From Cymbomonas tetramitiformis (taxonomy: Eukaryota; Chlorophyta; Pyramimonadophyceae; Pyramimonadales; Pyramimonadaceae), in the NCBI GenBank assembly GCA_001247695.2, contig LGRX02033413.1, positions 1 through 64,000 on the forward strand: a stretch of DNA of 64,000 bases, read 5' to 3'. The position numbers were made by a program, and so were the translations under genes. This document shows positions 3,646 through 53,277 of the stretch, piece after piece (the first letter of the stretch is position 1; each line of letters begins with the position of its first letter). The notes beneath the pieces were generated by a model. That model was not told the DNA's origin and made no database searches. It saw only the letters and a program-made list of their open reading frames with translations.

Positions 3646-4044
3646 GCGAATACTGCACGTCGGATCAACTTTACATTCGAGCGACACTGACCCAGAATCC
3701 CAGATTCGATCCCCGTCCCACGCAGAAATCGAACTTATCGCGAAATGTGTCAGTCCCATACTCCCATTTAGGCAACCTGTAACTTTAGGCAACCTTTAAC
3801 GAACTGTTTGCTGGCTGCTGTTTTTTTCAATATAATATATCGACGTCGTAGTCGATAATATTCGTATTTTTGTAGTCGTTTTCCGTCCTTCCCGCCGTCC
3901 GTCCGTCCCTCCGTATATAAATATGGCTGATAATATTGTTGGAGAATGGGATAGCGCGCAAGGCGAAGCGGAAAGGGTACGTTGGTGTTTACGTTTTCCG
4001 TTGAAAATTGCTTGTGTGAAAAGAAACATCATCCTTTGCAACGA

Positions 4045-4165: not shown

Positions 4166-4460
4166 GCCATGGTAGTGATAGGTCTTAAACACACTATTCG
4201 ATGAAAATGACATTATCATATGTCATTTTTGGATTTATATATATTTCAAAAAAATCAGGGTTTAGTGATATTTATGCGCGAAATAGGGATACATAAAGGC
4301 AACACGGTAGACAAGTGCAGTATGCGTACAATGAAAACACCGAAATATGCATACATGTATCATTCTTTATTCAAATGTTTACGAGTAGAGTTCTTTTCAC
4401 CCTATACCGTCGAGGCATGACTGATACTATCAGTCAGGGCGGTCGACAAATCCTACTATT

Positions 4461-7400
4461 TTAATCATCATTATCATCTGCGTCATCTTCATCTCCGTCT
4501 TCATCCTCAGATTCGGCAGTGGCCGCTTCCTTGCCCTTCGCCGTCGGTTCGCTCTTCTGTTTTGGCTTCGTCTCGGCGTCCTGATCGGGCTCGTTGTCGA
4601 AATTGGTCAGCCGTTGTTGCGCAGAGCTGACCATGAACTGGTCGTGGTCGAAGCCGATCGCGTTCATACCACACCTCATGGCGGCCATGGACGTCGAGCC
4701 GACGCCGCAGCAAGCGTCGAGAATCCAGTTGAGTGGATGGCCGTTCTCATCCATCTTGCCCGGATTGTCACCGAGCATGTGGCACTGGATCAGCTCCATC
4801 AACAGAGCTTGGGGTTTCTGATGGTTATTCACGGCTTTGTTGTCGCGTTTGAACATCTGGTGCACAACCGGGAAGCCGCGCAAAAGTGACGCGCGGCTCA
4901 CACGTTCACCTTCTCCAGTATCAAAGTTGAACATCCACTCCGGCTTTTTAGTAGACTCCCCCTGGGCATCGCTCTTTACATGGTACCCCAGGACGCCACA
5001 TTCAACGTCATTGTAGCGCACGGTCCTGTTGGGGTTCATGTTCACGTTCTGCTTGTGCCAGAAGAACCGCTCCGCGCGGCCGGAGCAGTAATTGTCAATC
5101 ACCTCCAGGAAATCGCTTTGTTGGACGAAACCGCAAAAGATAGCGATAGTCCATGCCGGGGCGGTGGTCTTGGCGTTGAAAGACTCCAGGAACGGTTGCA
5201 CCTCCTCCTTGGTCATCGCGTCGGGAGTCTTCTCCTTGTCAAGGGCGTAATTGCAGTCGATGATCGTCCCCGTGAAGGGCAGCCTCGGGACGTCCTTCAT
5301 ATCGCTCATGCTGCCCTTGACGATCTTCCAACGAGGGAACATCGGCACGTTCGTCTCATGTGTGGGCTCGTCGTCCTCAAGGCCTGCCTCTCCTGGAACC
5401 TTAAGCTCCGGCCCCTCGGTCCGCGCCTCCCGATAGAGTTTGATGTCGACTTTCACCTCGACCTGTTGCAAGCCTTGGATTTGCCCCGCGCTTGGCGCCT
5501 GCGCTTCTTTGAGATTCGCCCGCGCGTTCTCGACGTAATTGAAGATCGCGTGCGGAACTTCCCCAGATCCCCCCCGGCGCGCTCCCCCCTGAGTTGAAGG
5601 TAAGCAGCCGATCAACGACTCGATTTTCTCTTGGGAGCTCCAGTAGGGGGTGAACTCGTTCTTGAATTCGTCCCAGGTTTGCAATCCCGCCGCGGACACC
5701 AAGTGCTTCTGCACCATGCGTTCCTTCTTGAACTGGCTTATCATCTGGCCCCCCTCTTTTACTGACAACTCCTTGTTGATAATCAGGCGCAGATACGTGT
5801 CCACCTTGTCGAACTCCGCCTCCCCCGCCAAGCCGCCCAAGTTAATCCAGAACGTCATACCCATGGATTTGGCATTGTGGAGAAACTGAGCTTCTTCCAC
5901 CAAAATGCCTGCCCCTTTAGACGAGCCCGCTCCGTGGTCCCCGCCTCCTCGTTGCACCTCGTCTTCCATCTGCAAGTAAAAAAAACATTTTTAGCATGTC
6001 TTAAAATATAGAAAAGGATGCTTTGGGGGGTAAACACTGTTTGAAGCAGAAGTAAAAAGTAATTTACCTGTCGGTTGGAGGTGCCCTTTTTGCCAGCTTT
6101 CTTGGCGGGTCCCTTAGCGGGCGAAGATGAGGCCTTGCGCTTTTTGGTCTTCGAAGCCAAAGGGTTTTTCATGGTCTTCAGCTCAAACCTTCTGTAAGCC
6201 TCCATGATGCTAACGCAGAGGTCCCACGTCTGCGGCCGGAAATTGGCAATTGTCCAGTGCATGAAGTAGTGGTTGATTTGAGTTTCGCCGAACACCGAAT
6301 GCTTGGACATCGCTACTTGCTTCACATGCGTCCTCATAGCTTGGTTCAAGTGAGACATTACGGGGTACCAACTTGTGACCCGATCGAGGTGAGCGTTGAT
6401 GTCATCGTTCAGCGTCTTCATCGTCACCTCTACCTCGGGGAGGAGCTCAGGGTCTCCCTCGCGCTCAAACGTCTGCACATTCTCCATGTACTGGAATCCC
6501 TTGGGATATTTCTCGGGATCCGGGACTGAAAATCCATGCTCTGATTCGAACTCCGCCATTTTTTGCACCAGCCCTCCGACCTCGTAATACCCAGGTTGAT
6601 AAGGGGTACCCCGTTCGGTGTCCTCGGGGACGCCGGCGACGAACTCGGAGATCAACGCTTCTCGGTAAACCCTGTACACGACCCCATGCTTTTCGAAAAG
6701 GGTCGAACGAAGCCCTTGCATGAACTGGGTGTTGTCTTTGCCTTTCGTCTTCTGGTCGATTTGGTTCTGCATCTCGCCTAAAAACCGAATCATGTCAGGC
6801 GTGAGACCGATGTAGATCTTGCTCTCGAAGTGCCAGAAAGCTACCTCCAACGGGATTTCCTCGTGACACTCGTCGGTGGCTTGATAACAGTGCTGGTGCC
6901 CAAAAACCTTGCCTCTGTATTTTCCCTCGAGAGCTTTTCTCAGGGAGAATTCGGCACGGGTTTTGACATCGTCGATCGCAACAAGACCCGCATTGAAAGG
7001 GGCCCACGGGTTCTCCTTCCTGCTGGACTTGATCTCGTTCACCCAGCCCCTCTCTTGATCCCGGCAGGCCTCGTACCCCGTCGCGTGGTACAGGCATTCA
7101 ATGGGGAGACGAAACACACTCCCTTTCTCGGCCGCCTCGTCGGTATCCATCGGGTTCGGCCACCGGTGCTCCATCTCGATTTGCCTGCACAGCTTTGCTT
7201 TCTCCTCATAATCCATCTTTGCTGCATGCTCCACTGTTAGCTTAGCGTGCCACCCATGTGCAGCCACCTCGGCTGCCTTCCTTGCCTCAGATGGGGTGGC
7301 CACTTGAGACATATCCACATTAGCGCCCGCTCCAGTAAACGCTCTGGAGCCACCAGGTCCTTGAAGGGCGCGTTCGGCAGCACGCTGCACATCCGTTCTC

Positions 7401-8511
7401 CTGGCAGCCTGGGACAAGACGAAACTGTTCATTAGCTAATGAACGCCTTCCGCCCCGGTCAGGGCTCAGGGCGCGCGTTTCCAGGCAAAAAGCGTTCATT
7501 AGCTAATGAACGCTTTTCGCCCCGGTCCAGGCGCAGGGCGCGCGTTTCGAGGCCGAAAGCGTTCATTAGGTAATGAACGCTTTCCGCCCCGGTCCAGGCG
7601 CAGGGCGCGCGTTTCGAGGCCGAAAGCGTTCATTAGCTAATGAACGCTTTCCGCCCCGGTCCAGGCGCAGGGCGCGCGTTTCGAGGCCGAAAGCGTTCAT
7701 TGGCTAATGAACGCTTTCCGCCCCGGTCCAGGCGCAGGGCGCGCGTTTCGAGGCCGAAAGCGTTCATTAGCTAATGAACGCTTTCCGCCCCGGTCCAGGC
7801 GCCTGGCGCGCGTTTCGAGGCCGAAAGCGTTCATTAGCTAATGAACGCTTTCCGCCCCGGTCCAGGCGCAGGGCGCGCATTTCCAGGCGAAAAGCGTTCA
7901 TTAGCTAATGAACGCCTTCCGCCCCGGTCCAGGCGCAGGGCATGAAAGGGACGTACCGAAGCCTCTACAACAGGCATCTCGCCAGCAAGTCCGAGGTCAT
8001 CGATCACTGGCGCTGGCCTCCTGCTTTGCCAGAAAGGAGCTGTAATCGACGCTTTCCACGCCTGGTTTACATAGCTCGCTAGATAGAATTCTTTGCTTTT
8101 TTTTTCTTCTGCTGCCCTAGTTTTCAAATTTTGAAAAGCCATAAGCCGATTTGTGTGCTTTGGAAGGCTGAAGGTTTCCTCAAAGTTTGCGCTGTCTAAT
8201 TCGATCACAGTAAGCTTTCTGTTTCTGAATGCGACGAAATACAGAATTGGAGTCTGGTTCTCAATGATACTGTACGCTACGCGTTTCTCAGGAACGAGGC
8301 TACCCTCGACTACAGTCGAAGAGGTAAACGGAGGAAAACTGTAAAACACTTCTTCATTCTGCTCGTTTGGGTCATCAGAGTGAATCACTATTTGCAAGGT
8401 GTCAGGAGGATCGTCGGTTTCAAGCGTTCTGACAATGCTCCACTTGTTAGCTAGATAGTACTGGAAAATATGTGTTTCCCTCAGTACTTGAAATGTTTCG
8501 GGTGTCGCCAT
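4461..8511 (-). CDS. Methyltransferase-like protein with beta-class amino-MTase motifs (three exons)
   Basis: Three exons join in phase: 8511-7957, 7408-6068 and 5969-4461. The donors are GTACGT and GTAAAT; both acceptors end in CAG. The product is about 1134 aa. The C-terminal third shows the motif order of beta-class N6-adenine/N4-cytosine DNA methyltransferases: a motif IV position reading IIDCNYA (about residue 870), then FFWHKQN, RYNDVECGVLGYH, HQKPQALLMELI, and a motif I-like LDACCGVGSTSMAA (about 1049) followed by AIGFDHD. Motif IV lacks the usual PP of DPPY, so activity is uncertain. The first 630 residues match nothing I recognise; they end in a basic KKRKASSS-type stretch that looks like a nuclear localisation signal, and the extreme C-terminus is acidic. 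Intron 1 is filled by the palindromic satellite. The ATG at 8511 (MATPETFQVL) is chosen over upstream ATGs, which would add a leader with no resemblance to coding sequence. The gene is divergent from the DUF7869-like gene, and transfer from bacteria into an element is a reasonable inference. Confidence 0.7.
7409..7956. repeat. Intron-filling satellite, 67-bp unit with a 20-bp palindrome
   Basis: About 7.5 units of roughly 67 bp fill intron 1 of the methyltransferase-like gene from splice site to splice site. Every unit carries the perfect palindrome CGTTCATTAGCTAATGAACG or a one-base variant. The rest of the unit is GC-rich (CCGCCCCGGTCCAGGCGCAG and so on). Units are nearly identical, which points to recent amplification or homogenisation. 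This is not a CRISPR array: the interval between palindromes is itself repeated. Confidence 0.9.
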
Positions 8512-8835
8512 TGCGAAATGAGAGAAATTGGCTGTCAACTGTGGAAGGGGTGTGTGTGAAAGAACTTTGAAAAAATGATGTAACTTTAGCACAATATTGT
8601 AAATCATTTCTGGCGGCTGAAAATGACATGTCAAATATCGATGTCAATTTTAATCAAAAATGACATTTGCTGTCGCTTCCTGATTCGGTCTGTTCAGATC
8701 AAGGATATGATTTGAAGATATCCTGGTATCATTTGCGCTTAAATCGAGAATCGATCGATTTAGTAAGATAGAAATTCTCCGTTGACTCGCAAGTCCATAT
8801 CATTTTCAGAACGTAAAAAACGGCTTCATAAGCTA
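8512..8835. promoter_or_regulatory. Probable bidirectional promoter of the divergent gene pair
   Basis: 324 bp separate the two divergent start codons (8511 minus, 8836 plus). The interval contains the self-complementary words ATCGATCGAT and GATATC, and AT-rich stretches, but no clear TATA box. Both genes would be driven from here. The role follows from gene arrangement only. Confidence 0.45.
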
Positions 8836-11800
8836 ATGACGTCTAATTTTGACGAAAATATGTTTTCTATTCCTTTTGATGAAGGTTGCGAGATTATCTG
8901 CAAACCGTGCCCGAGAATAGTTATTGAAGATTCTATGGAAATAGAGGCTGACTTTTTCAATCATGAGCCAATTCCAAGCACAGCCCCGAGCGCAAATACG
9001 CAATTGGTCCTTTGGAACGCGCCTTTGACGTGTAGATCGGAAGTTAGCTCTAATTCTTCACGCGTTTCCGGGTCACGCGCTTTGCGCGAATTTGACTTAC
9101 AAGAGATAAAAAGCAGACTTGATACAGAATTTTCAGAGACAAGTTTGGACTTGAGGAATGAAGACCCTCTTCATTGTTTAAATGGTGAAGTAAACAAGCA
9201 GATTGTCGTGCGCAAACCGTACGAATCCGACATACGCAAACAGAAATATACAGGCGTAATTAGTATCAAGCAGCGACGTTTGCAGGCTGACAGTATATCA
9301 ATGACAGAAACCATTAAGTGCAATTGCAAGTCGCACTGCTGTCTATCTTTCTCATCGGCAGATATTAAGTCTCTTCGCGAAAAATATTTTCAGCATGACG
9401 CAAAAAGATAGAAAGGAATACTTCATCAAAGACTTGCTAAAAAACAGCTATCGATCTGAGGACAAGTTCGACTTCAAATACTTTTTGGCCAAGAAGCAGG
9501 TATGTTTTTTTTTGAGCTCGTTCATTAGCTAATGAACGGCCTCTGGACAAAGCGCGACTCACACAGGGACACTTTGGCTACGGGAACCGTTCATTAGCTA
9601 ATGAACGGCCTCTGGCCAAAGCACGACTCACACATAGACACTTTGGCTACGGGCACCGTTCATTAGCTAATGAGCGGCCTCTGGCCAAAGCGCGACTCAC
9701 ACAGAGACACTTTGGCTACGGGAACCGTTCATTAGCTAATGAACGGCCTCTGGCCAAAGCGCGACTCACACAGAGACACTTTGGCTACGGGAACCGTTTA
9801 TTAGCTAATGAACGGCCTCTGGCCAAAGCGCGACTCACACAGAGACACTTTGGCTACGGGAACCGTTCATTAGCTAATGAACGGCCTCTGGCCAAAGCGC
9901 GACTCATACAGAGATGCTTTGGCTACGGGAAGCGTTCATTAGCTAATGAACGGCCTCTGGCCAAAGCGCGACTCACACAGAGACACTTTGGCTACGGGAA
10001 CCGTTCATTAGCTAATGAACGGCCTCTGGCCAAAGCGCGACTCACACAGAGACACTTTGGCTACGGGAACCGTTCATGCGCTAATGAACGGCCTCTGGCC
10101 AAAGCGCGACTCACACAGAGACACTTTGGCTACGGGAACCGTTCATTAGCTAATGAACGGCCTCTGGCCAAAGCGCGACTCACAATTAGACACTTTGGCT
10201 ACGGGAACCGTTCATTAGCTAATGAACGGCCGTCCCGCCTGCAGACGTGCAGTGTTGGGGGTGTCTCCCAAGCGTCTTAAATTGGCATGACCTACCAAAA
10301 CCCTTATGCATTTTCTAGATAATGTGTTATTAATTTTTGAGTGACGGTTTTTTTTGTAACAGGTGTGCTTTAAGTTCTACTATATGGCTTACGGCATCAG
10401 CTACGGGTATCTTCACGACTGTCGGACACGCGTGCTCGAGGGCCGACACACGTTTGTTCATGGATTGACGTACGAGGAGGACAACCGCAAGATTTCTCTG
10501 AAACGCGAGTCGGTCGTCGCCTGGCTCAAGAAATACGCCGACGAATACGGACAACACCAACCTGACAAAGAACCGATTCATCTTTCGGATGGATTGACCA
10601 TCGAAGAGCTGTGGGACGAGTACAACGAGGGCTTGCAAGAGAATGAGGAGAGGAAAAAATGCTCTCTCAGTTACTTCTACAAAATATTTGACGAAGATTG
10701 CAGGAAGTGGCTCAAGATTCCATCGACGAACCGATTTTCTCAGTGCGATGTTTGCGCGTCCTTCAAGTTATTGAAGGAAGGCTTAACCAAATCTCAAAAA
10801 GGTGAATATTCATGAATAGCTTTGTGATGTGTTTATATGCTTATGTAATTTGTTCACTGACCCAAATTTGTGTATCTTGCACAGCGCAATACAACGGGCC
10901 TCTCAACAAACATCATGCAATCGCACGAGCGGAGCGCCAGAAGTTCTACAAACATGGTCGTAAAGCGAATATGACCAAGAGCATTACCATGAACAAAACT
11001 TGGCATAAGTATGCCTCGGTGATCATCGATGGCATGACGCAGTGGACCACCCGACTGCCACACTTTCGACGTATCCCTAAACATCTGGACTCTAAGGACT
11101 TCCTTGACGTGCACAACATGGGGAGCATGATCGAGAACGTGGGCCGCTTTATGGATTTCAACTACGCCAACTTCAAGGACGATGCGAACTTCCTTGTCAA
11201 CGTTTTGCACCGGGATATCCTCCGCATTCAAGAGCATCGACGCAACGGGGACGGGGAAAATTCATACCCGATGCCGGAAGTATTGTATGTACAGCTTGAC
11301 AATGTGAGCACCAACAAGAGCAAGTTGATGTTGGCATACGCAGCTTGGCTGGTGCACACGGACGTCTTTCGCAAGGTGAAACTCAACTTTCTGTTGGTGG
11401 GACATACGCACGAGAACATTGACCAGATGTTTTCACGCTTCTCCGTGCGTCTACGACGCAAGCAAGCTTGGACGCTCGACGAGATGATAGAGGTCGCACA
11501 AGAATGCTTTACGGATGGTGTAATATGCGAGCACACCGAGAAGATCTTCGACTTCAGCTCTTGGTTTGATGGTCACGTCTTCGATTGCCACAATATTTTG
11601 GCACAGCAGGCTTTCAAGTTCAAGAAGAACGAGCACGGCGAAGTGGGCATGCAGTACAAACAGTATTCCATTTCACCCAAATGGTTACCCGAGACTCCAT
11701 TGCCAAAGCTTGTTTCTACACCCCCTGTCACGGGGCCTGGATACATCAAGCCGATTCCTTTTACCGAAGAAGGCATCGAAAAGCTTGAGCATACCTTACA

Positions 11801-12664
11801 GGCGTTGAAGGACATTTTGGGCACAAAGCTCACGGAGGTGCACGAAAAGTTTTGGCGCGAGGATGTCATCGAGAAACAGCGCCACCTAACTGCTGGTGGA
11901 GAATGTCAAGCGCCCGCGATACCCTTCCAGCATCCCGAGAAAATCGCCATCGAGCGCAATACCACCTTGGTTCGACTGATAGAGGCGCCCGCGTTGGCGA
12001 TAGAAGCTGCCGAGGCTGCCGCCGTCCCCGCTATACCGGTGCGCATCCAACGCCGAATTGATCGAGCGCCGATAGAAGTGTACAACGGTAAACGGAAACA
12101 CCAAGGTCGAGCCCAAAAGCGAGCAGAGCAGTACGTGGACAACGCCCAGTGGGAGGTCACCTACGGCCAGATGACAGTCGGCAGCTTTGCGGTGGCTCTC
12201 GCGGTGGAATCTGAAAACGACAAGTTCGCGTTCCGCGTACAACTGAAGCGAAGCGAATGGTCGGATCCGTTGTACTTGGTGAAGGTGGAGGCGCGCTATC
12301 CGTCAACTCAACAGCTGCTATATCGCTATTTCCAACCCAAAAGCACACCGACACCAAGAAGAAGCACCTCGGCAAGCAGCTTGCGAGTCACCCAGGAGCT
12401 TTCGCAGCGCCACCGGGGCACCGACCGTCTACCGAGACTTTCGATAAGAATGAAATAGTGTTGGCATGGAATGTGGATGCGAATGACCCCGAACGGAGTA
12501 TACCGAACGAGCAATACGCGCAGATAGTCGTCGCTTTGCTTGCACAACAATCCAAACGCACGCGCAAGGACCTAGGTGACTTGAATGAATCGGATGATTC
12601 CGATGAAGACGAAGCTTTTGATAATTGCGTAGCGGTAGCGGTAGCACCTGAAGTGGACGCGTAA
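8836..12664 (+). CDS. DUF7869-like, transposase-like protein (three main exons, two frame breaks)
   Basis: Exons 8836-9499, 10363-10801 and 10885 onward join in phase (cag|gtatgt, aaag|gtgaat; acceptors aacag and cacag). The N-terminal part has a cysteine cluster CNCKSHCC, and a second pair CDVCASF lies near the end of exon 2. The core has three conserved-looking acidic motifs: SVIIDGMTQW, VQLDNVSTNKSK and VGHTHENIDQMFSRF. As I remember it, this is the pattern of DUF7869 proteins, spread through algae, oomycetes and animals; an RNase H-like DDE fold is an inference. The C-terminus has a segment, SFAVALAVESEND...SDPLYLVKVEA, resembling a small beta-barrel reader. Oddities: the frame changes near 9392, where the frame ending at 9411 is replaced by one beginning MTQKDRKEYF, and again near 12340, after which an acidic tail runs to 12664. 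These are either mutations or unrecognised splicing. Intron 1 holds the 69-bp satellite. Confidence 0.6.
9517..10232. repeat. Intronic satellite, 69-bp unit with the same 20-bp palindrome
   Basis: About ten units of roughly 69 bp lie in intron 1 (9500-10362) of the DUF7869-like gene. Each starts with the palindrome CGTTCATTAGCTAATGAACG. The remaining 49 bp (GGCCTCTGGCCAAAGCGCGA and onward to CTTTGGCTACGGGAAC) have no resemblance to the spacer of the satellite at 7409-7956. Only the palindrome is shared. Units differ by a few substitutions. Confidence 0.9.
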
Positions 12665-13014
12665 AGCAAGACGAACAAAAAACATGTAAATAATATGTGT
12701 ATAACGTGTATATAGATTCTGAGTCAAAAGTTCTGTGTGTTTTCACTCCTCCTAGATTTCGAAAAAGTGCATTTGACCTCAATTTTGTACCATAAAAACC
12801 ATTAAATCTAATGCACAACCTGCACTTGCATGTTCTTGACTGTTAAAATGCGGCTTTTTAAGCCTATCATGAGGTAAATAAGGCAATATCATTTTCACAT
12901 GAGAATATCATTTTCATCGAATAGTGTGTTCTTAGGGTTTTCTTTAAATATGCTCCATGATGGGCGGAAGCGCTGCGCAAAATCTTAAAATTTACGGTTT
13001 GTTTTGCGGTGCAG

Positions 13015-14156
13015 GTTTTGCCGTTGATGTCGGGTGCGGTTGGAAGCGAGGAGCAAGCTAATCGAGAGCTATTACGTTTCGCGATGAACCAAGGAGGTAT
13101 CCCGGTCATCTTTCTCACCCACGACGAGCTCAAGGCCTTCGAGTCTGGCTCGTTGTCGAAAGTGTTACGAAAGTATGTAGTGCACAATTCTAACGACAAT
13201 TTTGTCGTTCTCGTGGCTGCCTCTCGGGACTTTGTGACTCAACCGAAAGAGGGCTCAAGAATTCTTGGGCTCTTGTTACTCGGTCCCTTTTTTTCCTTGA
13301 GGGATCCCCTGTTCGCTGATTTGAGCCCCTGGACATTCGAGGAATATCAGGGGTTGCGCGACGATAGGCGTGCCTTAATGCGCGCAACCCTGAACGAAAA
13401 GGTAGCCTCGAAAACTTGGTGGAGCCCCCACTTCGACCCAAGGGCAGTCGATGTGCCCACGTACGCGTTTCGCGTGCAAATGATTTTATTGTTTCCTCCA
13501 CCCCTCGATGAAAAGCGAGTGGTGTTGGAGCCCGAAATCTTGAGCCAAAAGAGAAACGGCCAATTTTTCAACGACAACCTTTTCCATGCCCTCGCAAGTC
13601 TCTTGGATAGACAAGTCTACAACAAGAGGGCCACGAGGCCATTCAAAGCGGTGTATGGGCCTTCCGCTAGTGGGCCTCCAATACAACAAGAGCAATTCGA
13701 CTTGTTATTTTATGGTGGCGCCCCATCTTTGGTCTCCAAGACATTCGCTCAATCGCCTCCCACCTTCCTCCAATCGCCTCCCACCTTCCTTCCCCTAGTG
13801 CCTTCAAGGGATGCTTCAACGCCCTTGACCTAGGAAATGTGCGCATCGCCTCAAGGCACTCCGAGTCCGGCCGTGCTTTTTTATTGGAATACCTTCAAAG
13901 CAAGGCCAAGGAATGCGCGGGGGGAAAGGATGCCTTAGGCGAGGCCGTTAGCTTTTGGTATGGGTGTGGTTTGATGCCGAACCAACCCTTTGGCTACCGC
14001 CTAAGCAAGTCCGACGTGCAACCGCCGGATCTTGTCATGGCTAGCCTTATGCTTTTGGCCACACAAGAGGCCAATCGTGAAAGCGAAAGTGTAGTTACGA
14101 AGGGGGTGTGGGGGGCGGAGCCCCTCATTGGTCTTAAAAAAACTTTTCCGTATTGA
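13015..14156 (+). pseudogene. Unrecognised gene, probably frameshifted
   Basis: An exon begins after the splice-acceptor-like GCGGTGCAG at 13014 and stays open to 13833 (VLPLMSGAVGSEEQANRELL and on). A second frame continues the coding character from about 13790 (SAFKGCFNALDLGNVRIAS) to 14156. The switch lies just after a duplicated 21-bp word encoding QSPPTFL, so a frameshift there is likely. Earlier exons may exist between 12700 and 13008. I recognise no domain. The sequence has the look of a globular alpha/beta protein (FVVLVAASRDF, FYGGAPSLV). It lies immediately downstream of, and in the same direction as, the DUF7869-like gene, so it may be part of the same element. Its end runs into a single copy of the GGGGCGGAGCCCC repeat seen at 2105-2375. 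Confidence 0.4.
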
Positions 14157-15484: not shown

Positions 15485-18400
15485 ATGCGAATACAGCTGA
15501 TCATACTAGGAATCACTTATCGTTGCGCTCTTGGTGCATACGACAATTGGGGATTTGTAGAACTCAATAGCACGACCAAAAATTGCCTGAAAGATGTGTA
15601 TCCGGTTGATTCACTCCAGGTCTGCGCTCTTCTAGAAAGTCTGAGTTCTACGCGGTCCTTACGACTTTAATGATTTCACGCTTGATATGCTTTGATTTAC
15701 TGTTTAGTTTAGGCGCAAGTGTGTTGCGGTGCTTCAGTTATGTTGAACGAGGAGGCAGGGCATCCGAGTTGTTGTATATTACAAATCAAGTCTTCTCTCA
15801 AGTAATCTGCGTCACTCTACGGTTTGAGTAGAGAGTATTAGCTTCCACTTAATTTAACTTTTCAAATGCGCGCATCGATAACCTTGATATGTTCGCCTCT
15901 TGCTTGCATTCCGTGTAAATCGCAATTGCATTCTCTATCCAATTGAGATGTTTCTGAACTGTTCAGTGGGAGCGTGAGAAGCAAAACCCGAGGAGGTGTT
16001 CAGTGACCAAATTGATCGTTGATGATTGGAAACAGGTATGGGCGGTGGGAGAGGATGATAGCATCCTGCGCTCTGTCGACGGTGGTGACACCTGGACGCT
16101 GACGCACAGCGGCTTACTCCCACCGTGCGAGAACTGTGCGAGGTACAAGTGGCAATCCGTTCACTTCTATGACGAGGAGAATGGCTGGGTGGTGGGTACT
16201 TACGGCATGGTCATGAAATGGACTGAAACAGAGGAAGAGGACGGCGTTTTTGTATGGCAACCGCAGGTATTGCATACAAGATTGCGGCTTGCCCATGGTT
16301 CCACCTGCCGCACTTGACGTATTGCCTGGTGACACATGTAAAACTACACCTGCGGAACGTTGGTGCCACGGGCGAAGCGCCCATTCAAACACACGTCACG
16401 TTATGGTTCGAGAGAAAAGAACGAAGGTTCATAGTTGTGCGCGGCAGTCGCACATGAGCGCCAGGAAAGTCCGACGAGGCGTGGCCGGTTCTCGCTTGCG
16501 ACGCGTCATGGAGACACGCCAGTGTGAACAGAAAGCCTCTAGAAGCTCCCTAAGCTCGAGTGGCTTTCGACAGCAGGGCGCTTCGAGACCACGCATTGGG
16601 CAACTAATGTCCGTTCCTGTGAGAACTACACTTCGCTTCAAGAAATTGAAGCTCCGTTCGAGCTCCGCACTGTGCCAGAAGCAGTCGCGGTCATGACACG
16701 TAAGCGCGCTTCCAGGGTTGCATGCGCACCTGTAGTGATTTCCTTTCTAGGACTGCCAAACACTTTACCATCGAGGCACGGAACTCAATATTTCTGTTTT
16801 CTGGGAGGTTTTCTCGCTTCCTGGCACCCGTCTTTCATCTGGCGGTCGGCTGGCGACCATGCAGATGACGCATGACTCGCTGGTGTTCGACGGCATGCAC
16901 CACACAGTGGATCTTCATGACGTCCAGGTGTGCAGCGGCCCTCTTAGGCCACCTTCATGGCCGCCTCTCCTCTCTTACCTTCTGCGATCTGGTACTGATG
17001 CATGGCATGCAACAAATACGAGTACAGCTGTGTACACGTAGTTGCTCATAGCGAATTAACAATTCGGGTCGAGGGGACCGGCCTGACCGTTTCTAGCACA
17101 CATGACGGATCACATTGTATCGAGTTGCTCGTGTCTTCCTCACCCAACTCAGTCGTTGCCATCTTTCACACAACACCTTTCCACTCCGCTTTCTGCGTGT
17201 TACGAGCACACGTGTTTCTTTCCCTTGCATCGGGATGAAATTGTGGCGGGACGGTTGCCGCCGCCGGTCTCCGATTGTACTACAGGCGGTATCAAGTAGA
17301 ATGGCATACATAGTGGGGGACTATGGTTTCATTATGCGCACAGTCGACGGCGGCGCGAACTGGGTGAAGCTAGAAAGCCGCGTGGTGGACAACTTATACT
17401 CTCTCTCCTTCGTGAACCGCACGCATGGCTGGGTGGTCGGAAGCATCGGCAGCAGATTACTGTTCACCAGCAATGCCGGTCAGACCTGGAGTGTACAGGT
17501 AATCCGCACCTTCCTGATCGGAAGCTTGCTCTTTAGCCACCGCTGCAGTCTCCGCAGGCCATGCAGTGCTAAAAGTAAAATCACGTCGCCAAACAATGCC
17601 GCAAAACCCAGCTCAATCCACCAGTTCAAACTCTTTTGCCAGCTTGCCATTATCTTGAGTAAAAGGTGGCCACCTCCCTTAGGCCAGTACTCGCCCGGAT
17701 AAAACTTTCGGATCGACGGATCCTGTTACAGCGGGTGGAGCCTTGGCTGCTCTTCGCTTTCAGCACTGTGTCGAGGACTCTGATAGCCGTGTCTGCGAGA
17801 GGTGCAGTTTATTTCGGCGGTGAGCTGGCCGCAGCTCTCGGCGGTGTACTTCGCGAGCGGGCTCTTGGGTTGGGCGGTGGTAAGTAACTCCAGGTTCTGT
17901 GCGCTCTCTTGTCCCCGGTTTCCCCGCTTTGTACCTCTTGTCTCCCCACTTGCTAATGAACTTTGCTGGATACCTGTGGTGCGGCAGCCGGGTCTCTGGG
18001 AGAGGCCAGGCCTAAGGGCTCTCACAACCAAGTGGTCCAGAGAGGCGCATCTACCCGCTCGTGGCCTCTCACAACATGGCGTCCTCACCGGGGATCAAAC
18101 AGGGGAGAGAAGGCGGCATCGTACGGACGAAGGACAGTGGGGTCTCCTGGGAGGAGCAGTCTGGTGCGCCGACACTTCCCTTGTTCCTGCTGTCCACAGC
18201 ACGCACGGGCGGCTGAAGTTGACACCCTGAAGCCTGCTCTCGGGGCCCCTCGCTGCGCTGGCTGGAAGCAGCAGGACGCCCTGGCTCGGGGCCCCTCGCT
18301 GCGCTGGCTGGAAGCAGCAGGACGCCCTGGCTCGGGGCCCCTCGCTGCGCCGGCTGGAAGCAGCAGGACGCCCTGGCTCGGCTTAGGGCTCCGCGGCCGC

Positions 18401-21400
18401 AGTTCCTGAAATTGACTCCCTAACACCCGGAGAGACCCTCATCCCCTGTTGTGGCCCCTCTGCCGCCACTGCTGGAGATGCTGCCCTAAGGCCACACTTG
18501 TGGCCCCTAACCTGCGCACGCTGCAAGTGCTTTGTGGGCCATTGATATCCATCTGGGTGATGCGAGCTGAGAGGCAGGGGAGGGGGGGGCTGGATGAGGA
18601 GGATGTGGGCAGCCTGTACAGACCTGGGGTTGCGCAGCATTCGGGTTGAAACATCAACTGGATATGGATTCGCGGTGGGAGAGGAGGGCGTCATCTGCTG
18701 GAGTTATGACGGTGGTGCCAGCTGGGAGCACCGCCTCGTGCAAGATAGCACAGCTCTACATGCGGTGCGCCAATGGCGGCTCCCTGATCATGCCGATGTC
18801 GGCCTCTGCCCACCGTGGCCCCTTCGTCCTCCCCCCTGGCATTGGTCGGTGCCCAAAGCTCAGAGCAAGTCATGAAGAAACATCACTCATGGGAGCACCG
18901 AGCCGCCAGAGCTTGAGAGAGAACCCATTCACAGAAAACGGTTGTGTATTTGTGGGAGAGTCTCAGCAGGCCGCTATAATTTGATTGGAGAGTCTCAGGA
19001 GGCCGCTATAATTTGATTGGAGTCTCAGGAGGCCGCTATAATTTGATTGGAGAGTCTCAGGAGGCCGCTATAATTGATTGGAGAGTCTCAGGAGGCCGCT
19101 ATGATTTGATTGGAGAGTCTCAGGAGGCCGCTATGATTTGATTGGGATGTGGTTGAAGCAAGCTTTTGGAAGCAAGATTGTAACAGCCCTCTGTAGAGAT
19201 TGTAACAGCCCTATGTGGAGGCTGCGTTTCCGGAGTGTGTCAGCCGCTCTCCACAAGGAGGGATCCAATTGTCTGGGGGCCGGATAGATGTTCCAACCAC
19301 CAAAAGCTAGCGCCGCGTGGATGGCTGGAATCATCGTCTGCAAAGTCAGCAGCTCCCAGGGGAGGGCCTGCCATCTTTGGTGAGCAGGTCAACGGTGATC
19401 CAGCAGGGGTGTCATATGTTGTCATCTTTGGTGAGCAGGTCAACGGTGATCCAGCAGGGGTGTCATATGAGCAGGTCAACGGTGATCCAGCAGGGGTGTC
19501 ATATGTTGTCGGAGATTTCGGCGTCAAACGATGCAGTGGAGCGCCGCCACCGCCACCGCCACCGCCACCACCACCTCCGAGTCCCCCGCCCCGCCCCCCT
19601 CCTCCTAGCCCACCTCCCCACCTAAACCATCCCCACCGCCGCCTCCTTCACCACCCCCTTCGCCACCGCCGAGCCGCCTCCTCCCTTCACCCCCTTTCCG
19701 CCCTTTCCACCCCTGCCGTCCCCACCTGCACCACCGCTTCCTCCATCTCCACCGTCCTCCCCTCCGCCAGCATTTCCACCATCGCCCCCATCACCTCACC
19801 ACCCATGCCACCATCTCCACCACCTCCGCCTCCCCGCCCTTCCCCCACTACCCCCATCGCCCCTCCCCTCCAAGCCCTCCGAGTCCGCCATCACCTCCAC
19901 CCCTCCGCCCATATGGCACACAGTGCACTCCACAGAGGGCACTCTTTTTGCACTGTCACTTTTGGCCTCAGGTGTTGGCTACATCGTTGGGGAGCTGGAC
20001 ATTGTTTTACGGACGGATGACTGGGGCAACACGTGGGCCGTACAGCAAACACTGCTCGGAGTTGAGAGCACTGACTGCCAGCCTGTGTGTGAGCGATTCA
20101 CCTGGTACAACCAGCTCCTCCCCCTTCCCCTGCCTTCCTTACCCCTCCTCTCACCACTCTCCCCCCTACTAGCTGTCACCCCTCTTCCTCTCTGGTATTT
20201 ATGCCACCAATCAATATCCATTCCCTTCTCTCCCCTCAGTCTCGGTCCTTTCCTTTGCTACTTTGCGTTGCTTACTGGCGCCCGCACCTCCGCTCGATTC
20301 CGGGGGCGCCGTCAGAATATTAGTGTGGACCGAGTCTGACATCGGGTTGTGGCGAAAGTCTCTGTAAACAGCCCAAGATGTTTGCCTACCACGTCCTTGA
20401 CACAAGAGCCGAGCGTGTGGAGGAGCACGAGTGACACGCACACCCGATGTGGCGCAGGTCGCCTGCCTGACTCACATGCCCTGCGGGACGGGCCTTGCAG
20501 GTACGGAGTGAGCTTCTATGATTCGTGGACTGGATGGGTGGTGGGAGGCTTCAACAAAATCGCACGGACTGCAGATGGTGGAATGTCGTGGAGCGGACAA
20601 ACAGCTCCAGACCCGCAGCAGCTTTCCTCCCTGCTGGCGGTGTCTGCCTCCGAGGTGCGCACGGGCCCTCGAGCGGAGCAGCCCTACTTGGACCATTCAT
20701 TCTTCACTCGAGGGGATAAATCCTCAAAAGTGGTCAACACACAGCATGGCAGGATGATGACATGACAGCATGATATGCGCATGTACCCAGCATGGCAGGA
20801 TGATGACATGACAGCATCGATTCAGTGTGCCTCATACCGGCTTGGTAGTACCACCAATCCTCCGATAAGCGTGTTCTGAAACCCGGGCATGGCCTGGGCA
20901 AGGTTGTATGTTTCCAGCATATGGCATGCTCATGAAGCACTGGTTACTCCCAGATAAACGTTTCGATGCTTGCGATGAGCGACTGTCACGACTGATTCCT
21001 TCGGCGCCATGTAGCCACCGAGGATTGGCTGCGCTAGGCACTGTCTGGCTTTGTCTGGCTTTGTCTGGCTTTTGTCGGCGGACCTTGTGCCGTTCAGTGT
21101 GCACATACACAATCATATTGCAGTCATAGTGTAATAATACTGCAATAGTCGCATGTGTGTTTCGCAGTCATAGTGTAGTCATAGTGTCGTCATATTGCAA
21201 TAGTGGCATGTTTATGTCATACAAGTTCAACCCACCCACGCAAGAATGCTCCAGGCAGTGGCGTTAAATAATTGATAAGGTCGTCCGTGACAACGCTCTG
21301 AAGTTCAGAAGACTGACGAATGTAAGAGTCCACCATCACGAGCATCGAATCATACCACCGGTGCACATGGGGTTGCTTGTTTTGGGGGTTTCTCTTTTGC

Positions 21401-24400
21401 TTGAATCCTCATTTGCCAAAGGCAGGCACTACAATACATTTCATTAAAATGATTTTGTAAAGTGTTTAAAATGCATAAAGTGCTTTTTGAATGCTTTCTA
21501 AATTCTAGTTTTGATGAGATGTCCAGACTGTCTGTGCACGTCACCAAAAGGAAAGAGTCCTCTGGGTCGGGAGCGGTGGGAAGAGCAAAAGGAACAGAGC
21601 TGAACAGGCGTGTCGCTTCGTGGCTACTTGTACATCCTGTTTGTGTCACGGAGCTACATGTGTCATTCGGCTCTACTGCAGCAGGAGTCACGGATTCTGA
21701 AAGTCTGAAACCACAAAAATTCTGTTGCACTCCAATTTGAACATTTCTCTTTTGCTCGAATCCTCATTTGCCATGAAACCAAAGATGAAACTGTGAGGTA
21801 CACAAAAGAAATCTGATCTCTGTCACTGTGACCATGTTAACCAAGCGAAGTAGTAGTCCATGTCTGTGTCCCTCAGAGCTGTCGGGTCGATGTAGTGCTG
21901 CACTGCCGAAGAGAATTGTGACCAGCCTCCAAAGAAGCACACTTTCTCCATTGCAACACCCACAGCTCGAGCACACGTCGTGGCACCCTTCCGGGTGCTG
22001 TGTGCAGAAAAGTGACCTCCTTCCGGAGGTCGGCAGTCCAGCTCGCTGAGAGCCAGACCAATCCAGTCATTTGCCACTGAAGCCTTGAAGTTCTTCGGGT
22101 CCTCGGGTAGCAGCCAGTAGGCGTCAGGTTGAGTCTTCTCAGAACTGTTCCAAGCCGTGTCACGGTGGAACTCCCAGTGCTCGATCAGCTCCTTCAAAAG
22201 AGCCACCCCCTTCCAGGGGATGCACAGGCGTCTCTTCACCAGGTGGTGCCGCCGTCCTTTCTCTTTTAGCAGCACCACCGAGAACTCACTGTCGCCACAA
22301 TGAACGTGCTGCCGTGACAACGAAGTCCCCGTGTCCGGCCTGCCGAAGGTCACGAAGGCAACAACCACGTAGGCGAAGGCTCGCAGTAGCCGCAGCTCCT
22401 CAGGCGATCTCGGAGTCAACTTCAGCGCTGCTTCGTGCACACGTCGTACGTGTGCCGCTGGCAGCCACGTCCGCTGGGTCTCGATGTTCTCCTCCTGCAC
22501 CGCCAGCTCCGCCTGGATGGTCGCCATCCCCTTCACAGCTCGGGTCACAGAACGACCCTTCGCTGGTCCAGGAAACCGTAGGTCCTCGTGGTAGTTGTTG
22601 ATGGCAGACAGGTACGGCTGCAAGGAGGCCGACTTGATGCCCCCGTCCTTCAACAGAGAGGCGATGTACAGCAACACCGTCGCCTCCGATGCTGGCAGCC
22701 ACGGCCGTTGGTGCTGCTCACAAAATAAAATGAAGCGCCGCGCCTTCGGTCCGTAGTTGCTCATCGTCGTGTCCAGCAGTGCTTTTCTCTGCATCGTCAC
22801 TGCCAGTTCCGTGAGCCGGGAAGGTCCCAACTCACCCCTCCACCGCTCACAGAGTGAGCGCGTGAGGAAGTTTTGTACAGCACCACCGCGCTTGTACTCT
22901 TCGTAGTCGCCTCCGCTGATCCGCTCGATGTTCTCGCCGTCCGCGTCCGCTGCCTCGTCCGTCAGCTCTGACACGCTGTTGATGATTTTGAAGTTCTCCT
23001 CGGACAAGTTCAGCGTCTCCTCGTCGCCGTCGTCGTACAGCACGTGCGCCTTCCCGTCCTCGTCGAACTCCTTCACCACACCCGGGTAGAAGCAGTCATC
23101 GTCCTTCCAGAACACCTCGATTTTCGAGCCCACGGTCACCTTGCTCGCTGTCGTACTCGTAGCAGAGCTCCTTCGTACTTCAGCAGCGTAGTAACTCACG
23201 GGCGCGCCTCGATGAAGAACATCACAGCGTCCCACTTTGAGGGCCCGAGCAGCTCGGACCCTCCCAGCCTGCTCGGAGTGAACAGGTCCCTGCGCCGTGG
23301 CATGATCACCACCTCGGTGGCCAGGGCCTCCAGCTCCCTGAACCAGGACTGTCCCGGCCAGTACGGAGCCACCACCGTAGCAGCGGCCCCCTCCTCCCGC
23401 AGCTTGTGCGCCACCTCGTCCAGCAGCGCCCACGGGGGGTTCACCCAATTGTTTTCCCCCCGCCAGTCGTACGTCAGAGAGTCCACACCTTCGCACTTCG
23501 GGTCCTTCCACGCAGCGTAGTACCGAGGAAGCTGCGCGGAGATCTCGGAAGCGAACCGGTCGACTGTGTAGGGCCCCCACTGCTTGTTGGCCCACACGAA
23601 CCAGTCTCGATTGAGCCGCCAGTCGTCCAAATCCTCGCAACGAGAAAGGTTGTCGGCCCACACGTTGGCCTCGCTGCGGATGTAACGAGCCTGCAACTCG
23701 ATGTCGTGCAGATCCAGTAGCAGCCAGAGCCTCCTCATTCTCCTCATCAGGTCCGGGTTTCTGGAGGTGAAGTGCGAGAGCATTGCCACCACCGCCTGGT
23801 TGTCGCAGTAGAGCCGTACGACCTTGCCCTCCAGCTCCTGCAGGAACGCCTGTACGGTCTTGTACACGGCCTCCAGCTCCAGGTGTGTGATGTGCCAGTT
23901 GCGCATCTCGTCTGGCCAGAAACCTCGCGCGGGGAACTTCAGGTTCAGCACTCCTCCCCAGGCCGTCATCGAAGAGTCTGTGTGCACCTTCGCTCTCGTC
24001 GGGGATCTCCAGATCTTGCGCCCGTTCCACCTGCTCATCACAGGCAGCCTGGACCACCATTCTAAGTCCCCCCGAGCTGCACGCGAGATCTTTACCTTTG
24101 CTCCCCAGCTGCGTTTCTCTGCCAGCACGAAGTAGAGCTCCCGTAGGTAGAGCCGCGCCGCTGGTACTGCTAAGTACACGGATTGGCAGAGTCCCGTGAA
24201 GGAAGCCAGTCTCCTGGCAGGAATCCACCTCCGATTTCTCGTTGCGTCGCACAGGATCTCCTTCGCCTTGGTGTGGATCTTGTGTACCCGTCGTTCTGTT
24301 ACACGGAATTGTCCCAGTTTCAGGTCCACCTCCAACCCGAGGTGCTCCACCACCTGTGTAGGCTCCCATTGGCCCTTCTTCTCGTTCCGCCGTAGGCCAA

Positions 24401-27400
24401 GTCGATGAAGCACCAGTTGAACTTTTTCTCGACGCAGAAAGCCTTCTCGTTGAGAGTAGACCAGCACAAGAAAATCGTCCATGTACGGTAGTACTCGCAT
24501 TCCGCTGTGACAGTTCGCGTTCCCGCCAGCACCACCGGTCCTGCGACGGACTGACCATCGCTGTCGTACTACGGAACCGTCCCGCAGCCTCTTGATTTCT
24601 CTGCGATCTTCCGCTGCCTGTGGAGAACGTAGAACTTCCACCATCACGCGTACGAACTTGCAGAACACCCTCATAGCGTCGCTCCACCCGAACGGCATCG
24701 CTGAACATTGAAGCAGGTCCCCTTGCAGGTCGAACTGCATGAATCGTTGAAAGTCCGGGTGGATCCCCAGCGCATGAAAACCGTCCTGGAGGTCGAAGCT
24801 GAAGCACCAGTCGCCCGGTTTCGCCAGTCTCCTTAGTTTCTTCAGCGTCTCCATCTTCACGCGATTTTTCACACACCACTGGTTCAGCCATCGGAAGTCC
24901 ACCACCAGTCTCCACTTGTTCGTACCCGGTTTCGGCACTAAAAAAGCGCGAGAAACATGAGATCTTCTCGTCGCTCTCGTCCAGGCACCGTTCTGTAGCA
25001 GCCTTTCCTTCTCCGCGTCCAGCCACACCTGCTGCTGCCGCGTAGCATCCCTCAGTGACACCCCGTGGTCGAACGGAGGCGGAGGCCCGCGCTTCCACCT
25101 CAACTTCACCCCGTGAGTAATCCATTGCATCACCTCGGAACTGGCGCCCGCCGCGCGCCATGCTCCCCTCCGCTGTCTCACCTGCTGTTGCACGGTGAGT
25201 TTTCCCCGCCCAGCGCCCGGAGAGGGCTGTTGCGCTGGACGGGGTGGCGGCACGCACATCACACATCGGCCGCGGGCTTTCCGCCCCGGCCCTTGCCGCC
25301 TTTTTCGGTAGGCTTCTTACCGTCCTTCTCCTCGTACTTCTTACGTTCCTTCCAGCGCTGGTCTCGGTCTCGTGGATTCACCACCCGCGTTTCCGCGTTC
25401 GCTGCATTTTTCGACGTAAGGCTCAGCATCGCCTTGCCGCGGTTCTTGTCGAAGTCGTTCAGCCACTGCTGCAACACCTCATCTGCCACCACGCCGTCTG
25501 CTGCCTGGTAGACTCTGTCCTCCACGAACTGCAGCTTTGCACGTAGAGCGTCCGATCCTCCCCGCTGTGAAGAACCAGGCTCCTGCTCCAGCTGCCCGCG
25601 CAGTTCCAGCATCGTCCACCTGTTGCACAGTAACGCGTACACGCCGTGCACCGAGTTGGTAACTGTGTGGAAACGTCTCTGCCACTCGTTGTTCGACAAA
25701 TCGCAGTCCTCGTTCACGTCCAACGTGTCGTTGCATTCGCTCACCACGTCGTGCAAATAAGACAGTGCTGGAGCCAGAACCAAGCACTCGTACTTCATTG
25801 AAGAGTTGGACTTCTTGGAGAGAGCATCGTACGTCTTGTTGCCGTGCAGGTCGTACAACTGCGGCATTCTCGATGTCAGCGTAGCCGGCCGCGGCGGGAA
25901 CGGGTTGATTGAGGCTGCTGGCACGTACGCCAGCTTCCTCCTTCTCTCCAGAAGTTGCTCGGCGGTCTTGGCTACGGTGTCCGGGTCAGAAGTCCCAGGC
26001 TTCGCTGCCACCTTCGCCTCCAACTCCACGTTGATTTGTGCTTGTCGTTGAAGCTCGTCACGCAGCAGGCGATGCTCCTCTGCCTGCTGCCTCTGCATCT
26101 CAAGCAGCTCCCCTTGCTGCTTTTGCATGATCAGAATTTGTTGCATCAGCACGTCCTGAGTGGACTGTGCTGCCGGGGAAGGGGAAGCCTGCCCGATGTC
26201 TGGCTTCCCCGGGAGGGGAGGGAAATCCTCTGTAGACTTGCCCTTCGCAGTTCCAGCCATTCCTCTCCCTCAAAGGAGTCACAGTGAAGTCAATCGTACT
26301 GCCGTAGCCGATGTGAAGCCGTCGTTTGAAGTCGTAACGCCGTCCCCGCGACTTCGCTGTCAGATCTCCTGTCGTCGTTCGATCGCCGTCGTACAACCTA
26401 GTGGTCTAGTCACTACCTACTCTACTGTTTACAGGTGAAACAGGTGAAGAAAATCTTACAAAATCGGATTTGCAGTGTGCCTCACAGAGTACCGTAGGTA
26501 CCCGTGAAGTTCCTGTTTGCAAGAGCAAAAGGAACAGAGCTGAACAGGCGTGTCGCTTCGTGGCTACTTGTACATCCTGTTTGTGTCACGGAGCTACATG
26601 TTTCATTCGGCTCTACTGCAGCAGGAGTCACGGATTCTGAAAGTCTGAAACCACAAAAATTCTGTTGCACTCCAATTTGAACATAACCCTTTTGGGGGTA
26701 ACCCGCGTTCTGTTGGCATCCAGAGTGCGTCCACATCACGCCATTCCCTAACCCCACTCTGCTTACTTCCAGGGAAATACCCATGGTTCCTAGTTTCCAG
26801 CTCACCTACATTTTCTGGATCGGGTTATATGTTATCTGGGATGCCAACTGGCGTAGTGAAGCCTCCGAGGCTATCACTGTCTTGATTCTATGTCCACATC
26901 CAAGGGGTTCCATTGATTGACACTTGGTGTGAGATTGCATCTGACGGCCGCGACGGGCTTGGGCCGCCATGTGGGTGGTAGACCGCTCGCGACAACTGTG
27001 TGGGTCCATTTCTCAAGTTGCATGAGCTGTTTGACCTCACATTGCATCAGAATGAGCAGCCGGCGTGTGCAGGAGCATAGCTGTCCCTCACGTGGTGGGT
27101 GCATACCTGCGAGAGCATGAAGAGCAATCGGGGAGCAGCCGGTCGTGACGGTCGGTCAAGGGTTGCGGGTGGCAGATCAATCTGAGGGCTGTGGCGGCGG
27201 CAAGCACCTTGGAGGCATGGGCCGTGGGCGACTACGCGGTGGTGTATCACACCTTGGACGGGTCAGCAAACTCCGCCGCCTGCCTTCCACAAGGCGCTCC
27301 CCTGCGGAAGCCCGCCAGCGGCGCTCGGACTTGGCTGGATGATACAACCCTAACTCTCGTTAATGGGGAGTATTTGGAAGCGTGAATCGGGTCATGCCAT

Positions 27401-52461: not shown

Positions 52462-53191
52462 TTAGCCTTCATAGGCAGCTATAATGTCTGCTGCATTGGT
52501 CAGCTCTGTGGCTTTGACCCAGGTGTCATGCTCAGGACCGTAGCCTGCATATCGTACTAAATAGTATTTGACACCTCTAGTGAACTTATCCGAGAGTATA
52601 TGTGATATCTCAAACAGTGGTTGCCCTTCTTCGGTGATCATCTGTGGCAGAGGCAAAGGTGCTTGGATCGAGTCCTTGTACAGCTCTAATCTGGATACAG
52701 GCTGTACCGGATGAATACGGATATCAAGATTTCCGAAATCTAACTCGTATGCACGTCCATGGCTAAGCACTTTGGAAATGGTGAACGGTCCAATATATGG
52801 CTGCTTAAAGTGTCTGCCTGCCTCTGTCAAACCAGTCCATTGAATAAACTCGGTCCGTAAAAGAACTTTCTGCCCAACTGCAAACTGCTTAGGCATGTGA
52901 GTCTTATTGAATCTGGCTTGGCTAATTTCTGCTGCTCGGGAAATGTTGTCTACCGCGTTGGCATGAACAGCCGAGTACTGGTCAAAATGATCTCGAATAG
53001 CTCTTTGTATTGGAACAGGAGCTTCTGGCGGAATAGTGATAACCAGGTCATGAGGCGAAAGTGGTTGCGCCATCGAGTCGAGATAAAATGGTGAATAACC
53101 AGTTGATGCAGAAACGGTATTGTTAATTGCAAACTCCACCAGAGGCAACTTGTCCTCCCACGAATTGGCTGAAGTATCGTTGCAACAACAC
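52462..53191 (-). CDS. Integrase C-terminus and chromodomain (second pol exon)
   Basis: This exon continues the integrase after a probable 86-bp intron. It starts at the CAG acceptor (CCCNDTSANSWEDKLPLVEF), includes the TGYSPFYLDS block and the KVLLRTEF...W region of the integrase C-terminal domain, then ends with a chromodomain (YYLVRYAGYGPEHDTWVKAT) whose aromatic positions are typical for binding methylated histone tails. The stop is at 52462. In chromoviruses this module directs integration to heterochromatin. Confidence 0.85.
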
Positions 53192-53277
53192 CTGAGGATG
53201 AAAAAAAATACTACTTAATCAGTTTATAAACCAGAGGATGGTGAAATCATATCATGAATCAACAATTTGAAAAATAC
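53192..53277 (-). other. Probable 86-bp intron in the gypsy integrase
   Basis: Without removal, pol stops at 53259 after RYFSNC. Removing 53277-53192 (donor CCG|GTATTT, acceptor TCCTCAG) restores EDILR|CCCNDTSANSWEDKLPLVEF, the sequence expected between the DDE core and the LPLVEFA block. The length is not a multiple of three, and the 3' end has a T run before CAG. Confidence 0.65.

Follow-up and report, generated by a model that had tools for sequence, protein, structure and literature searches.

Do the divergent methyltransferase-like and DUF7869-like genes found in a 64,000-nucleotide stretch of Cymbomonas tetramitiformis DNA (contig LGRX02033413.1, positions 1 to 64,000; called the window here) form one mobile system, and what do the palindrome arrays in their first introns serve? 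A preliminary description, made from the letters of the window, had taken both genes as a single unit spanning 4461..12664. The unit was upheld here but its extent was not: positions 4188-12930 are a multicopy DNA transposon of 8,743 bp, carrying both genes as cargo between its inverted ends. It is organised as follows (positions are those of the window).

4184..4187, no strand: left target-site duplication CTTA (sequence reading and script)
4188..4222, plus strand: left terminal inverted repeat, 35 nucleotides, 91% complementary to the right one
4461..5969, minus strand: methyltransferase-like gene, exon 3, with the beta-class amino-methyltransferase-like domain, motif I ILDACCGVGS and DCNY at the motif IV position
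6068..7408, minus strand: methyltransferase-like gene, exon 2, without family match
7409..7956, minus strand: methyltransferase-like gene, intron 1, with the 67-bp array at 7420-7941 and 8 palindrome sites
7957..8511, minus strand: methyltransferase-like gene, exon 1, which holds the start codon (8511) and has no convincing family match
8512..8835, no strand: divergent intergenic region, presumed from the sequence to act as promoter
8836..9499, plus strand: DUF7869 gene, exon 1, its frame interrupted near 9,390 in the window copy (end read from the sequence)
9500..10362, plus strand: DUF7869 gene, intron 1, with the 69-bp array at 9519-10231 and 11 palindrome sites (sequence reading, in agreement with P0022)
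10363..10801, plus strand: DUF7869 gene, exon 2 (sequence reading, in agreement with P0022/P0032)
10885..12664, plus strand: DUF7869 gene, exon 3, with the RNase H-like transposase domain (IDGM, LDN, HENIDQMFSR), frame broken near 12,345
12896..12930, minus strand: right terminal inverted repeat
12931..12934, no strand: right target-site duplication CTTA (sequence reading and script)

Genome searches covered 851.7 Mb in 25,745 contigs. The exact 23-mer of the element end was encountered at 797 + 774 places and its reversed control at none; these ends, together with 9,729 palindrome sites (see below), point to several hundred copies. Eighteen copies were compared, the one in the window plus 17 others extracted from the genome (L007, L008, L013-L027), the latter being every end pair 5.9-9.9 kb apart among about 100 of the 1,571 end places listed. 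Loci L009-L012, fetched at palindromes, were excluded (the stretch read had a single end in L012 and no end in the remaining three), and longer end pairs on contigs C977 and C1038 lay outside the sample. Sampled copies ranged from 5.9 to 9.9 kb; that each has two ends is given by construction, because they were picked as end pairs, which is not so for the duplications. A perfect target duplication of 4 bp flanked 16 of the 18 copies and differed in sequence in each, while L017 had no duplication and L027 one of three bases. Both genes were represented by parts in all 18 copies, with methyltransferase-like exon 1 in 17, its exon 2 in 16 and the middle DUF7869 exon in 17. Inverted ends, duplications and multicopy state therefore indicate a transposon family and not a chance gene pair. 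The preliminary description had named three outcomes as fatal to its proposal, namely genes that never co-occur elsewhere, a single-copy region with conserved synteny and a C-terminal domain unlike methyltransferases; instead, the head-to-head pair recurs in divergent families, the region is multicopy and the domain matches methyltransferases, weakly.

Inverted ends, a duplication of fixed length and a transposase of RNase H-like fold bearing three acidic residues, as found here, characterize DNA transposons with terminal inverted repeats (class II, DDE/D). Target duplications of Sola1 elements are 4 bp long, and those of the present element fit Sola1 in this respect; the element was not assigned to Sola1. 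Duplications of 4 bp are also stated for Sola2 in the extract of PMC3627910 used here. The window copy perhaps resides in an intron of a host gene, as a start-like exon (3923-3976) and an open frame at 13017-13833 after a splice-like CAG were recognized by eye; 12964-13830 gave no family match.

The plus-strand gene (8836-12664, two introns) displayed borders that, read from the sequence, agree with NCBI models P0022 and P0032. Its protein, early on described as DUF7869-like with three acidic motifs, indeed matched PF25273 (DUF7869) at 3.6e-48, and its structure model displayed an RNase H fold of transposase type, in which three acidic residues are conserved, and resembled mariner-type transposases. 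Two frame breaks set the window copy apart: near 9,390 it differed from 16 of the 17 other copies, the 17th (L027) being disrupted there, and near 12,345 from at least 12 of the 17. Both breaks sit in A-runs, so that assembly errors are possible. From the ends, the duplications, the multicopy state and the modelled fold with its three acidic residues, we infer that DUF7869 is a DDE/D transposase moving the element through its ends; ends, duplications and fold read most naturally as the outcome of cut-and-paste by this protein.

The minus-strand gene encodes a spliced protein of 1134 amino acids (exons 8511-7957, 7408-6068 and 5969-4461, GT-AG introns), in line with the first account. Exon 3 of the window matched PF01555 (N6_N4_Mtase) at 1.8e-5 with 25.3 bits, slightly below the cut-off of 26.7. 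This cut-off was passed by relatives P0014 (33.1) and P0085 (31.9) and missed by P0084, P0016, P0013, P0012 and P0005; 18 of 22 family members matched the profile at E <=0.1 (best 7.1e-8). The DNA methyltransferase profile phrog_67 gave 1.6e-11 with the window protein and 3.9e-13 with the best family member. The beta-class order of tetrad (IIDCNY), FCGF strand, QKP helix (NNHQKP) and ILDACCGVGS was kept, the tetrad and the last stretch corresponding to motifs IV and I; PF01555 alignments all began at profile position 43 or later, past motif IV. At the motif IV place, 19 of 23 proteins displayed DCNY, DGNY, DCVY or DSMY and P0019 displayed DGNC, while three lacked the stretch. A pattern requiring D-x-x-Y, run on the fetched loci from L007 onwards, found DCNY 23 times and DCVY six times. 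A (D/N/S)PP(Y/F/W) tetrad occurred nowhere in any of the 23 family proteins. Canonical tetrads are SPPY, DPPY, NPPY, DPPF and DPPW, and replacing the first and last residues of SPPY abolished activity (both from an extract of PMC8885841). Compared with these, both prolines are gone, D is kept, and Y is kept in all but one of the 20 proteins readable there. Judged from its motifs, the C-terminal domain is related to beta-class DNA amino-methyltransferases but is not a canonical member. Because both prolines are lost while D and, with one exception, Y are retained, methylation of bases by the 1134-amino-acid protein is best called plausible.

The remainder of this protein was less informative. 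Exon 1 gave three weak and unrelated rows against Pfam and exon 2 none at E up to 10; no ParB row appeared for either exon at this threshold, at which HMMER filters drop most weak matches. An AlphaFold2 model had a mean predicted local distance difference test score (pLDDT) of 52 and its fold was not used. Sequence searches of solved structures were weak as well (10 rows at E 0.23-0.97 with a single sequence, one row at 0.67 with an alignment). The best protein matches of the two window genes were Cymbomonas tetramitiformis proteins, 92% and 98% identical, and a region search with P0012 returned 10 proteins, all from Cymbomonas or metagenomes. Scans of viral contigs with both proteins gave no confirmed relative, and a scan of prokaryote genomes for a source of the methyltransferase gave 68 pattern matches of which none was confirmed; a near prokaryotic or viral source was thus dropped, none having emerged from these scans. 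Two public models are composite: P0017 joins methyltransferase parts with a DUF7869 C-terminus and P0020 joins them with a different N-terminal part. Both are likely deletion derivatives or annotation joins. P0005 (CYMTET_38922, methyltransferase-like) and P0028 (CYMTET_38921, DUF7869) have adjacent locus numbers and each lies on a 106,345-base contig, so that models of the two genes appear to adjoin in public annotation as well.

Each gene harbors one array in its intron 1, of 67 bp x 7.8 at 7420-7941 and of 69 bp x 10.3 at 9519-10231, and both arrays share the palindrome CGTTCATTAGCTAATGAACG, as first described. This 20-mer was found at 9,729 places of the genome, and the same letters read backwards at none. 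The 67-bp array was present in 16 of the 18 copies and the 69-bp array in 17, with four to 12 sites per array in this family (family A) and irregular spacing in places. Conservation of palindrome versus spacer (0.98 versus 0.90 and 0.99 versus 0.96) was not used, being biased by the choice of units through palindrome match. The terminal ends of the window copy lacked the palindrome core. Three further arrays of the window, at 18239-18381 (46 bp), 18948-19145 (32 bp) and 34047-34283 (61 bp), had consensus units without the palindrome. One palindrome site was encountered on a viral contig (L001).

Paired arrays were not confined to family A. Four divergent families (A-D) all displayed arrays in intron 1 of both genes with a common palindrome and unrelated spacers, and the consensus period was 67-69 bp in all eight arrays. 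Complete elements were read for A and B, and partial stretches for C and D. The palindrome arms varied by family, being GTTC or GTATC around ATTAGCTAAT. Family B (P0014) was 55% identical to A in exon 3 and counted at least six copies; the methyltransferase-side end was detected in five of six of its loci. Its element on contig C818 measured 8,372 bp, with ends AACACGCTATTCGCAGAAAATGA differing from those of A at three of 23 positions and a duplication TACC. There, both genes again stood head to head (the three pieces of the DUF7869 gene at 76%, 68% and 39%), with arrays of 68 bp x 4.1 and 67 bp x 4.0. On the methyltransferase side the palindrome was GTATCATTAGCTAATGATAC; the DUF7869-side consensus centre was ATTGGCCAAT, one unit retaining ATTAGCTAAT, and this mostly changed centre in one family B array was the exception to the palindrome match within pairs. 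No family A 20-mer was found in the C818 element at up to five substitutions. Family C (C1636, 3.2 kb read) displayed two 67-bp arrays with the common ACGTATCATTAGCTAATGATACGT, and family D (C6839, 3.4 kb read) 68- and 67-bp arrays with the common GTTCATTAGCTAATGAAC. Identity to A in methyltransferase-like exon 1 was 23% for B, 28% over 69 residues for C and 41% for D; the first DUF7869 exon gave 39%, 46% and 56%, respectively. Family D, the closest to A, carries the A-type site.

The distribution of site types followed that of the proteins. Against the 9,729 places of the GTTC-type 20-mer, the GTATC-type was found at 42 (reversed control none for each), 35 of which were on six contigs that also have methyltransferase matches to family B or C (C1636 with 13, C17208 with six, C818 with five, C280 and C5660 with four each, C11736 with three). 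The rare site therefore goes with the rare protein families. The other seven sites were on four further contigs, and the family B locus on C23324 had none.

Selection was estimated as the ratio of nonsynonymous to synonymous substitution rates (dN/dS). The filter, which for exon 3 asked for 93% of the exon-3 core without stop, let through 17 of 31 sequences there and 12 of 31 sequences of the DUF7869 exon; one family B copy that had been entered in duplicate was counted a single time. Between A and B, dN/dS was ~0.22 at dS ~1.8 for the exon-3 core (30 pairs) and ~0.06 at dS ~2.7, near saturation, for the DUF7869 exon (11 pairs). Summed values within A were 0.92 (105 pairs) and 0.56 (55 pairs), respectively. 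Judged from these ratios, constraint is evident between families, with little or none among recent copies. Among family A copies L007-L027, median dS was 0.034 in the methyltransferase half versus 0.013 in the DUF7869 half, and amino-acid identity to the window was ~96% versus 98-99.8% in many copies; the higher divergence of the methyltransferase half may reflect exchange between sublineages.

What, then, could the arrays serve? That two introns hold matched arrays would be most simply explained by a protein of the element that reads the palindrome, and, by analogy, arrays and methyltransferase-like protein together look like a self-recognition device of the VANC/VANDAL kind. We lean, by a little, towards a combined reading in which the DUF7869 transposase moves the element via its ends while an element-encoded protein binds the arrays, marks the introns and promoter of its own element and so evades silencing. 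The binding protein would most likely be the methyltransferase-like one, which would contact the arrays with its rapidly diverging N-terminal region: its exon 1 varies most between families, whereas the ends remain similar. The introns and the central promoter would be marked by amino-methylation of bases there or, should the altered catalytic motif be inactive, by the bound protein as such; the probable gain would be that the genes of the element are kept from host silencing, as with VANC on VANDAL elements. Two observations temper the preference for the methyltransferase-like protein as the binder: the first DUF7869 exon changes between families too, and a single change of palindrome arm was seen. 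A fuller version is rather doubtful, namely that the D-x-x-Y methyltransferase itself recognizes and modifies a family-specific palindrome in both introns, that each family thereby marks its own copies and escapes silencing, and that joint change of arm and N-terminal part separates families.

Quite possible, though short of an even chance, is a catalytically dead methyltransferase-like protein acting as a sequence-specific regulator (autoregulation or copy-number control) of the divergent genes, which overlaps with marking by binding alone. The missing (D/N/S)PP(Y/F/W) tetrad (0 of 23), its replacement by D-x-x-Y in 19 of 20 readable proteins and by DGNC in one, and Pfam matches that begin only past motif IV all speak for a dead enzyme, yet families at ~55% identity still have in common the cofactor motif, the QKP helix and two tetrad residues (D and Y), with dN/dS ~0.22 over the domain. 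Such retention, seen by sequence comparison, speaks for maintenance of the domain and not for its activity. It is unlikely that the arrays are instead bound by the DUF7869 transposase, or by a host factor it recruits, and work as internal enhancers of transposition or transcription with the methyltransferase-like gene as a passenger. The N-terminal exon of the transposase does diverge along with the palindrome (identities given above), but the ends, where a transposase must act, are alike in A and B while the palindrome arms change, those of the window copy have no palindrome core, and one of the two arrays lies inside the methyltransferase-like gene in all four families. That the arrays are ordinary satellites, spread by slippage in introns and functionally mute, is very improbable: site number does vary freely and some spacings are irregular, but one palindrome in two arrays with unrelated spacers and a period of 67-69 bp in four families is not expected from slippage.

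Under the favoured combined reading, candidate targets can be named: the element exists in several hundred copies, two of its introns hold a defined palindrome, and the four families offer two or more site types together with matched protein families. How a transposon distinguishes its own DNA from that of the host thereby becomes directly testable, and existing Cymbomonas nanopore reads (PMC10675990) could reveal N6-methyladenine (6mA) or N4-methylcytosine (4mC) at the palindromes.

Elsewhere in the window, the minus strand carries at 52462-57727 the coding region of a long-terminal-repeat (Gypsy-like) retrotransposon (gag, protease, reverse transcriptase, RNase H, integrase, chromodomain) and at 21826-25377 an open frame of 1184 amino acids with Tudor/Agenet and phage-integrase SAM-like matches below cut-offs, which is perhaps, from these matches, a tyrosine-recombinase element.

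Transposons with their own N4/N6-type methyltransferase had at first been thought undescribed, which proved incorrect: PMC12477816 (2025), in the extract used, reports Sola1-1_Ec32 of Ectocarpus, with an opposite-strand protein of 1104 amino acids combining ParB and an N4C/N6A methyltransferase, and cites green and red algal transposons with such enzymes. The class is not new, since brown, green and red algal cases are already mentioned there; the methyltransferase of such algal transposons receives a short remark there, and binding to and modification of the element that encodes it are suggested. Both elements are DNA transposons with an N4C/N6A-type methyltransferase protein of about 1100 amino acids opposite to the transposase strand. 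Sola1-1_Ec32 differs by its 21.5 kb and recognized ParB-like domain, the Cymbomonas element having 8,743 bp and no ParB match found; the same extract does not mention palindrome arrays. Viral Mariner-2_PGv and Mariner-1_OLpv (extract of PMC3627910) are likewise DNA transposons with a methyltransferase gene, but have three genes including an endonuclease, carry methyltransferases of other families and are integrated in viral genomes. The N4CMT of bdelloids (extract of PMC8885841) is also a bacterial-type amino-methyltransferase in a eukaryote and acts at transposons and certain tandem repeats; unlike the Cymbomonas protein, it is encoded by the host, has the canonical SPPY and is fused to a chromodomain. 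The CHeCME elements of Cymbomonas (heliorhodopsin, mirusvirus-like) were rejected as a counterpart, their gene content as described in the extract of PMC10675990 being different. The main text of that assembly paper contains no occurrence of methyltransferase, DNA methyl or methylase. In open-licence literature, neither DUF7869 by name nor Cymbomonas together with 6mA was found, and titles and abstracts revealed no palindrome arrays in such an element. Proteins with the same DUF7869 domain (PF25273) and its IDGM, LDN and GHTH..IDQ motifs occur in Chara, Riccia, Adiantum and many metagenomes. As far as seen, the element is a variant of a reported, seemingly little-studied kind of transposon; its anatomy, paired palindrome arrays tracking protein families and a methyltransferase domain lacking the motif IV prolines were not found described in the portions of the literature covered.

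VANDAL elements belong to another superfamily, and VANC is not known to have a methyltransferase domain. VANC of VANDAL21 is an anti-silencing protein that binds a short motif in intronic tandem repeats of two element genes and co-evolves with it (extracts of PMC5735166 and PMC10398659). It removes silencing marks, and its motif YAGTATTAY is not a palindrome, unlike the Cymbomonas site. The Cymbomonas element resembles VANC/VANDAL21 of Arabidopsis in that the targets, putative in the present case, are tandem repeats in introns of two genes of the element.

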